A stretch of DNA of 64,000 nucleotides, taken from Mucilaginibacter paludis DSM 18603 (GTDB lineage Bacteria; Bacteroidota; Bacteroidia; Sphingobacteriales; Sphingobacteriaceae). Position numbers and translations under genes: made by a program. The notes below the pieces were generated by a model. It worked only from the letters and a program-made list of their open reading frames with translations. It did not search any database and was not told the DNA's origin. The stretch spans positions 4,854,432 to 4,918,431 of the forward strand of contig NZ_CM001403.1 in the NCBI RefSeq assembly GCF_000166195.2. The letters are read 5' to 3'. Of the stretch, positions 42,787 through 44,283 are shown piece by piece. Position 1 is the first letter of the stretch. Every line of letters starts with the position of its first letter.

Positions 42787-44283
42787 ATGATAGATTTAGG
42801 ATTACCGGTTAAAACGCACGACGAGGAAAGACAGGGAGAGGCTTTAATGCTGGAACAACGCCCCGAAAAGAACAACGGACGTAAACTATACATTGAAAGC
42901 TATGGTTGTGCCATGAATTTTTCTGACAGCGAAATAGTTGCTTCTATACTGCTTGACCAGGGTTTTGAAACCACCACCGATTTTAATAATGCTGATGTGA
43001 TATTTATTAACACCTGCTCCATCCGTGAGAATGCAGAGCAGCGTGTGCGCAATCGTTTAAAAGAATTTAAGGTTGCCAAAAAAAGAAACCCCGGAATGGT
43101 GGTTGGTGTGCTGGGCTGTATGGCTGAGCGCTTAAAATCTAAATTTTTAGAAGAAGAGAAACTGGTTGACGTAGTGGTTGGTCCGGATGCCTACCGCGAT
43201 CTGCCAAACCTGATTGATCAGGTGGATAGCGGGCAGCGTGCGGTTAACGTATTGCTATCACGCGAAGAAACCTATGCCGATATTAATCCCGTACGTTTAA
43301 ATAGTAATGGCATTAACGCGTTTGTATCTATTATGCGTGGATGCGATAACATGTGCTCGTTCTGCGTGGTGCCTTTCACCCGTGGCCGCGAGCGTAGCCG
43401 TGATGCCATATCCATTGTTAAGGAATGTACCGATCTGTTTAACCAGGGATACCGTGAGGTGACTTTGTTGGGCCAGAATGTAGACTCTTATAAGTGGGAG
43501 CCCCTCCCAATCCTCCCCGGAATGGAGGGCTTTGATAAGGAGAGCTCAGATCAAAAAGTCTCCCCTACCGGGGGAGATTTAGAGGGGGCTCCCGTTGTAA
43601 ACTTTGCCCGCCTGCTGGAACTTGTTGCCCTGATCAACCCCGATTTGCGCGTGCGTTTTTCAACATCGCATCCAAAGGATATTACCGATGAAGTACTTTA
43701 CACCATTGCCAGGTACGATAACATTTGCAACTATATACACCTGCCGGTACAATCGGGCAACAGCCGGATATTGGAGATGATGAACCGTACTTATGACCGC
43801 GACTGGTATATCGACCGTATCGACGCTATCCGCCGGATTATCCCCGGGTGTGCCATATCGACGGATGTAATTACCGGCTTCTGTACCGAAACCGACGAGG
43901 AACACCAGGATACCGTGAGCATGATGGATTATGTACAATACGATTTTGCATACATGTTTATGTATTCTGAACGCCCCGGAACATTGGCCGCCAAACGTTA
44001 TGCCGACGATATCCCCGAAGATGTAAAGAAAACGCGTCTGCAAGAGATTGTAGCCAAACAGCAGCAATACTCGCTGGTGCGCTTGCAAGCTCAACTGGGC
44101 AAAGTACAAAAGGTGCTGATAGAGGGCTACTCCAAAAAATCAGACCGGGACTATTGTGGCCGCAGCGACCAGAACGCGATGGTGATTTTCCCGGTAGATG
44201 AGCGGTTTAAACCCGGCCAATATGTTAACGTACTGGCCGAAAAATGCACCACAGCAACTTTAATAGGAAAAATAATTGATTAG
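42787..44283 (+). CDS. miaB: tRNA 2-methylthio-adenosine synthase MiaB
   Basis: A 498-residue radical-SAM methylthiotransferase that converts i6A37 of tRNA to ms2i6A37. The UPF0004 domain has Cys in [20 protein letters not shown] and [10 protein letters not shown]; the radical-SAM Cys motif is [17 protein letters not shown]; a TRAM domain ends the protein. Between the radical-SAM loop GQNVDSYKW and [10 protein letters not shown] a GC-palindromic repeat (43498-43592) inserts about 31 residues (238-268) in frame, explaining the extra length. The catalytic motifs are intact. Confidence 0.95.
43498..43592 (+). repeat. Palindromic repeat element inserted in frame in miaB
   Basis: An imperfect 95-bp palindrome: outer ends GAGCCCC / GGGGCTC, inner hairpins CCTCC...GGAGG (about 43512-43527) and TCTCCCC...GGGGAGA (about 43560-43577). 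The GGGGGAGATTTAGAGGGGGC half is of the type widely scattered in Bacteroidota genomes. It is read in frame as a polar 31-residue insert. Confidence 0.8.

Follow-up and report, generated by a model that had tools for sequence, protein, structure and literature searches.

The palindromic insert in the miaB gene of Mucilaginibacter paludis DSM 18603 is best explained as the arms-only, endonuclease-less form of a selfish element that ends in palindromes and occurs in Bacteroidia, with a DUF559 domain in its full form; we give this reading a probability of about two in three. Near-identical arms are found in miaB and around the DUF559 domain of leuS, and a site in the icmF gene is empty, arms-only or DUF559-bearing depending on the species. 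The proposed tie between miaB and the DUF559 element rests on these shared arms. The window (i.e., the whole 64,000-nt stretch of DNA that was analysed) belongs to a genome of one contig and 8.41 Mb, and the features concerned are the following:

42787..44283, + strand: miaB, tRNA methylthiotransferase, host of the insert (498-aa ORF with Pfam UPF0004, Radical_SAM and TRAM)
43496..43593, + strand: in-frame palindromic insert, arms plus spacer, about residues 238-269 (inverted repeat, RNA fold, genome-wide family, absent from the 9-aa loops of relatives)
43498..43536, + strand: left arm, with an AGCCCC-type outer repeat, an inner hairpin CCTCCCC/GGAGGG and a CTTTGAT end (resembles the second-half unit of intergenic copies)
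43537..43552, + strand: spacer between the arms, from sequence inspection; place taken by a DUF559 endonuclease domain in certain other genes (compare L240 and L223)
43553..43590, + strand: right arm, AAAAAGTCTCCCC...GAGGGGGCT (near-identical to the right end of leuS DUF559 inserts)

The host gene is identified as miaB by the NCBIfam equivalog TIGR01574 (430.5 bits against a cut-off of 355.3); its best named miaB matches come mostly from Mucilaginibacter at no more than 83% identity, and its predicted fold matches MiaB structures with RNA (7mjv-7mjz). The insert forms a 98-bp imperfect palindrome with arms at 43496-43518 and 43571-43593 that are 78% complementary and 52 nt apart, and is read in frame as residues 238-269, with VDSYKW on one side and VVNF on the other. 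As RNA, these 98 nt fold at -51.8 kcal/mol (z -3.35, with 2 of 200 shuffles equal or better), while DNA parameters give a z of only -1.95 (8 of 200 shuffles equal or better). Because the insert is a member of a repeat family, it is not a chance palindrome.

The first-pass annotation of this DNA had described an in-frame palindrome of 95 bp in miaB that left the catalytic motifs unharmed, and both points are borne out, the radical-SAM cysteines (GCDNMCSFC, residues 185-193) being intact and upstream of the insert. Its figure of about 31 added residues comes close to the ~32 that the repeat encodes but exceeds the net gain, which is ~25 when the 34-residue loop is compared with the 9-residue empty loop of relatives. 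Structure prediction, which it had proposed as a check, returned a low-confidence coil: the insert is predicted to be disordered (AlphaFold2 pLDDT below 50 at residues 241-267, in a model with a mean pLDDT of 70.5 and other low segments, including 185-202).

Within the 8.41-Mb genome, the insert has at least 53 BLAST matches (E <= 0.01, itself included; 40 of 86 first-look candidates scored), and an 18-mer of its arm occurs in 36 exact copies, again including itself. Allowing up to three mismatches yields 62 matches vs. 48 for a reversed-pattern control, but this control is not independent, the reversed 18-mer being similar to the element, and it is safer to rely on the number of exact copies. 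The shared plan of the copies is AGCCCCCTCTAAATC, a hairpin TCCCC-CGGTA-GGGGA, GACTTTT, a spacer and an inverted second unit with the end GGGTGGGGCT. Two copies of this type (type A) lie well inside Pfam-recognised ORFs among the 50 copy-bearing loci, namely the one in miaB and one in a FecR-type anti-sigma gene (L157:863-2014, minus strand), where half a repeat is read in the same frame (KASPTGRDLEGAT) immediately ahead of the FecR domain. Two more ORFs have a type-A copy across their start, one for a pseudouridine synthase (L149) and one of acyltransferase type (L151), and the remaining copies at these 50 loci are located outside ORFs of at least 80 aa, at ORF edges, or in short ORFs that had no Pfam match where scanned. 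No match to the miaB insert was found in the plasmid collection. A further repeat copy (L023, G000:C1:4918486-4918523) starts 55 bp past the right end of the window. At several places in the genome, an insertion sequence with a 439-aa transposase-like ORF interrupts the repeat in its hairpin loop (L160, L161 and L162, with its first ~22 nt in L159; junction CCCGGTAGG), as if the palindrome were a preferred target of that insertion sequence.

A second arm type (type B, CCTCTCC/GGAGAGG) has 24 matches in the same genome, several of them in frame in housekeeping genes. The alaS gene (assigned by Pfam; L175:3-2420, minus strand) carries an arms-only, in-frame type-B palindromic pair (PHPALSKGEG...KVLSFGEDLVEA). 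The icmF-type mutase gene (also assigned by Pfam) contains two arms-only inserts in frame, and leuS has two arms with a DUF559 domain between them, which is the single DUF559 match in this genome. Palindromes are therefore read in frame in unrelated conserved genes of a single genome (miaB, the fecR-like gene, alaS, icmF and leuS). Type-B arms also make up the carboxy-terminal tails of a dihydrolipoyl-dehydrogenase-like protein (L185:1518-2957, minus strand) and of an exonuclease-like protein (L189:1492-2610, minus strand), both named from a look at their sequences.

The right arm of the miaB insert aligns with the right ends of leuS DUF559 inserts from seven other genomes over 35-38 nt with at most one mismatch. 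Identity is complete over 38 of 38 nt in L216, over all 36 aligned nt in L240 and L223, and over 35 nt in L239, and a single mismatch is found in the 36-38 nt aligned in L220, L236 and L238. The arms around the leuS DUF559 domain are themselves perfect inverted repeats, of 37 nt in L240 and 36 nt in L223, and an arm type similar to the left arm of miaB bounds the DUF559 domain at the truB end in L234.

In a flank test of DUF559 loci, the left flank of each locus was scored against its reversed right flank (score >= 30), which was done for 50 parsed loci, 20 of the 70 loci being left unparsed. The test was passed by 18 of the 50 parsed loci vs. 0 of 197 shifted controls from the same loci; by host, these were 11 of 15 for IcmF, two of seven for LeuRS site 2, none of one for LeuRS site 1, one of seven for Lhr, one of three for TruB, none of ten for HisF and three of seven for free-standing DUF559. 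The 32 failures included all ten HisF loci, six of the seven at Lhr and five of the seven at LeuRS site 2, and the test as run is only partly positive. Failures at LeuRS stem in part from fixed domain bounds, as the right arms are plain in direct alignment. With HisF and the majority of Lhr and LeuRS site-2 loci failing the test, the claim of shared arms is not extended to all DUF559 genes.

At the second icmF site, the 19 genomes parsed comprised six with DUF559 and arms, two with arms only, two with remnants and nine that are empty, three of these nine being from other families. The arms-only state is that of the window's own genome and of G001, whose arms resemble those of miaB. This sample derives from 21 icmF loci in 20 genomes, chosen from 35 with matches (most of them genus members, five of other families); it does not include G005 (contig end) and at least eight other-family genomes, and G037 and G041 fall outside the parsed 19. 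No target-site duplication was seen in the aligned miaB and icmF sites.

DUF559 is common well beyond these loci: it is present in 104 of 120 genomes of the genus and in 124 of 247 genomes of the class sample (four of the same genus), with 84 and 69 of the best 150 rows, respectively, in open frames of at least 300 aa. Hosts recognised by Pfam within the genus are LeuRS (at two sites, one in the editing domain and the second before YELSTMPGWAG), the IcmF-type mutase, an Lhr-type helicase, HisF (where the domain is amino-terminal) and TruB (where it is carboxy-terminal). The class sample adds MetH, HsdR, acetyl-CoA synthetase and a class I synthetase that, judging from its motifs, we call IleRS-type. 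The same leuS sites are used in different families: outside the family of the window, site 1 is occupied in L291, L302, L305, L307, L309 and L313, and site 2 in L289 and L299. At the amino end of HisF, DUF559 is joined through a short SPFRGRGGL-like linker (L205, L214, L215, L217, L218, L226, L227, L231, L232 and L242), and this fusion, which lacks inverted flanks in the flank test, is perhaps an old or degraded insertion. Among phages, only distant DUF559 relatives were found (seven records, all below 60% identity).

The long form contains a homing-type endonuclease domain (PF04480), and the DUF559 profile matches 3hrl (endonuclease-like, 7.8e-30) and 3r3p (mobile intron protein, 3.9e-5) in the PDB. 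Evolutionarily, pN was lower than pS in 217 of 217 within-host DUF559 pairs, and the median dN/dS by host ranged from 0.08 to 0.22 for the 69 pairs with estimable dS, in which synonymous sites are near saturation (median pS 0.73-0.80). These substitution ratios, calculated without L211 and without L282-L285 (repeat genomes), show purifying selection on DUF559. In the DUF559 tree, from which L211 was left out (wrong ORF) and in which the Lhr rows and a few others are shorter domain pieces, lineages mostly follow the host site, with 8 label changes vs. a shuffled mean of 30.6 (bootstrap not settled), a pattern to be expected if the elements seldom leave their site. The leuS copy of the window's genome is positioned among icmF copies without firm branching, in a clade of icmF, LeuRS site-2 and TruB copies (100/99) and outside the LeuRS site-2 clade (100/98), which hints at a jump between genes. 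At strict limits, none of 16 DUF559-bearing host ORFs had a protein-splicing (Hint) domain in Pfam (nor did five of them at E <= 1), no Rfam family exceeded its gathering score in seven loci, and none of the PADLOC defence models matched the two proteins scanned.

At the miaB site, a loop could be extracted from 119 of 120 loci, some of which represent the same genome twice; L078 was missed by the loop pattern despite a type-B palindrome, and is absent from the loop, merging and tree sets. Seven duplicate MiaB rows were merged, and leaving out the four of 119 without the common start gave 115 homologues for the comparison of lengths. Among these homologues, the miaB loop is the only tolerant internal site of the protein, residues 235-273 being the one internal stretch between conserved anchors that varies by more than one residue (range 49, the next 1). 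Loop lengths among relatives extend from 4 to 53 residues, and contents from empty to several repeat types. Over 50 distinct genus rows, 13 loops were of at least 27 residues with a fold z <= -2, 10 were of at most 13 residues, and 27 were neither. The arm type of the window recurs in the loop of L033 and, in part, of L036; type B, read as ALSKGEG...LSFGEDLGEA, is found in L034, L043, L065, L069 and L078, among others, and further arm families exist beyond these two. Type-B matches numbered 46, 61 and 55 in the genomes of three carriers of type-B miaB inserts and 10-53 in the other 17 genomes, a link between copy number and insertion that is suggestive only.

Turnover, erosion and a scar are all visible at this site. 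The closest relative (G007) has an eroded miaB insert (ASPAEADLEGSA), one type-A match in its genome, 22 type-B matches and no DUF559, and L141 has AGAGGGGGCT where L082 keeps the whole insert, at a flank identity of 89.4%, in what looks like a deletion scar. On a MiaB tree built without the loop, the palindrome label requires 11 changes, at least nine of which are forced by well-supported branches, and its scatter is like that of shuffled labels (172 of 500 as low). Such scatter would fit a fast turnover, and insertions cannot be counted from it. No miaB with DUF559 was found among the miaB matches searched or the DUF559 matches listed. The loops of L038, L040, L046, L048 and L171 encode peptides that resemble tandem repeats in translation (KSEVGSQKSEV, GQLAVG, LEPGTLNSEPGT) and seem to have no relation to the palindromes, and one miaB match in a distant relative (G044:C118:16527-17897) lies inside an open frame of 1496 aa.

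These results also place the remaining claims of the first-pass annotation. Its view of the insert as the coding counterpart of an intergenic repeat holds, the family being mostly intergenic at the 50 loci examined in its own genome, and the genome search it had suggested did reveal further copies, coding ones among them. Comparison of miaB among relatives established that the insert is not a protein segment conserved in all of them; with the segment unconserved and other copies present, some coding, neither of the two outcomes named there as contrary to its reading was obtained. What is unsupported is the term "domesticated", because the site in relatives is empty, refilled with other palindromes, eroded or scarred. 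The annotation also missed that the same arms bound an endonuclease-bearing form inside other genes.

A first alternative to the element proposed here is a REP/BIME-like dispersed repeat that depends on a transposase, of RAYT type or other, for its movement and landed in miaB by chance in a tolerant loop, with DUF559 as a later passenger. The copy numbers suit such a repeat, since palindromes far exceed DUF559 genes in their own genome (more than 50 type-A matches vs. one DUF559), as do the asymmetric hairpin units arranged in inverted pairs, like REP dimers, the four Y1_Tnp-type genes of the genome, and the REPs that an earlier study describes within genes of several bacteria, tRNA synthetases and truB among them (PMC3733652). 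However, loci of ~3 kb around the four Y1_Tnp genes contained no repeat unit (best E 0.039), and the unit ends have no GTAG or CGTC tag, GGTAG being found on inspection only in the hairpin loop. Nor would a simple dispersed repeat be expected to have arms that bracket DUF559 in several unrelated genes, or one icmF site with empty, arms-only and full states, and we consider this explanation unlikely. A link to RAYT was rejected in any case, as none of the four Y1_Tnp genes has a repeat nearby.

The insert could also have been co-opted as a functional MiaB loop, e.g., for tRNA contact, given that the open frame and MiaB core are intact and that, in the model, the loop appears to follow beta strand 224-228 on the catalytic side of the radical-SAM barrel. 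Yet neither its length (4-53 residues) nor its sequence is conserved, it is predicted to be disordered, and it is eroded or scarred in relatives, so that co-option seems highly improbable; a conserved functional loop was rejected outright, because length and content vary among relatives, and nothing that we found in the sequences points to a function of the insert. More a matter of history is the possibility that a single insertion in an ancestor of the genus was kept repeat-like by gene conversion and then lost or eroded many times, with no repeated new insertions. Carriers share the same position and a common right-hand pattern (QKVLSFGEDLGEA), the site of L141 looks like a deletion scar, and the longest identical block of the gene falls inside the insert both between L034 and L069 (94 nt, flank identity 86.6%) and between L031 and L033 (41 nt). 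Against this, the longest identical block lies outside the insert in the two other miaB pairs compared, several lineages have very short loops without evident scar, arm families differ, and at least nine label changes are forced on the tree by well-supported branches. This history is rather doubtful, and it is compatible with the best explanation, as it concerns only how the insert came to be distributed.

Returning to the endonuclease-less element, it is tempting to see in these observations class-wide "spliceless inteins", in which palindromic arms and a DUF559 homing endonuclease home to conserved positions in essential genes and remain part of the mature protein as a tolerated in-frame loop, the dispersed palindromes, including that of miaB, being endonuclease-less offspring; we put this broader proposal at slightly below an even chance. 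The full element would consist of a DUF559 (EDxHD-type) homing endonuclease between two inverted palindromic arms, lying in frame and stop-free in loops of conserved housekeeping proteins. With no splicing module found, translation of the element and its retention in the protein as an extra loop are probable. DUF559 would cut the empty allele or repeat copies, and repair would copy the element in (homing), with occasional jumps to new genes, while the arms would direct recombination and provide reading frames without stops. Copies with arms only may then result from internal loss of the endonuclease or from movement in trans. One frame through the arms is free of stops, so that an insertion in the right phase would extend the protein by a predicted disordered loop. 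Selection would spare only insertions into tolerant loops, such as the one that MiaB seems to possess, and MiaB would remain active despite the insert. The order of events is the main doubt: palindromes far outnumber DUF559 genes in this genome and none of the miaB genes found carries DUF559, so the domain may have settled in repeats that something else had moved, and the endonuclease may be a passenger. Also counting against the element are the 22 type-B matches of G007, which has no DUF559, the failures in the flank test and the lack of any target-site duplication in the aligned sites.

Parts of two earlier studies describe in-frame palindromes as translational fusions in unrelated genes of Rickettsia (RPE) and Wolbachia (PMC10969869; PMC3733652). 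Here too, palindromes are in frame in unrelated conserved genes, but unlike RPE they belong to a different phylum and have an endonuclease-bearing form at the same kind of site. To our knowledge, no endonuclease-bearing form is known for RPE, and we know of no mover for the Rickettsia protein-coding palindromes. Intragenic GTAG/CGTC REPs, as portrayed in a portion of PMC3733652, are short palindromic units, often dimers, that add 20-30 residues to proteins including tRNA synthetases and TruB. The miaB repeat resembles them in consisting of high-copy short palindromic units, mostly intergenic and also within genes, but it has no end tag and no copy beside RAYT-type genes, and its full form has DUF559 between the arms. 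With MITEs it shares a short length, inverted terminal repeats and a possible derivation from a longer element, but no transposase-coding parent or target-site duplication was seen, and its partner gene encodes an endonuclease.

Inteins and group I introns with EDxHD endonucleases are comparable in their related nuclease, in recurrent sites within conserved genes and in forms with and without endonuclease, but differ in that Pfam found no splicing domain and Rfam no intron here, and in the short palindromic arms read in frame. I-Bth0305I is one such EDxHD (DUF559/VSR-like) homing endonuclease, and the assignment of DUF559 to EDxHD reportedly goes back to Taylor et al. in 2011. In a more recent article, a DUF559 gene is assigned to the EDxHD homing-endonuclease family and discussed with inteins (PMC9403480), and in a study of Legionella, DUF559 and a transposase are grouped together at recombination hotspots (PMC12308824). 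The literature searched, whose scope left aside subscription journals and preprints, gave no description of in-frame DUF559 elements.

The occurrence of the same arms with and without a homing-type endonuclease, together with the three states of the icmF site, makes the origin of coding palindromes directly testable. If the proposal is true, this would be a selfish element living inside essential proteins without splicing. It could account for unusual lengths of LeuRS, IcmF, MetH, Lhr and MiaB in annotations of Bacteroidia, and its insertions provide a natural data set on the loops in which proteins tolerate additions.
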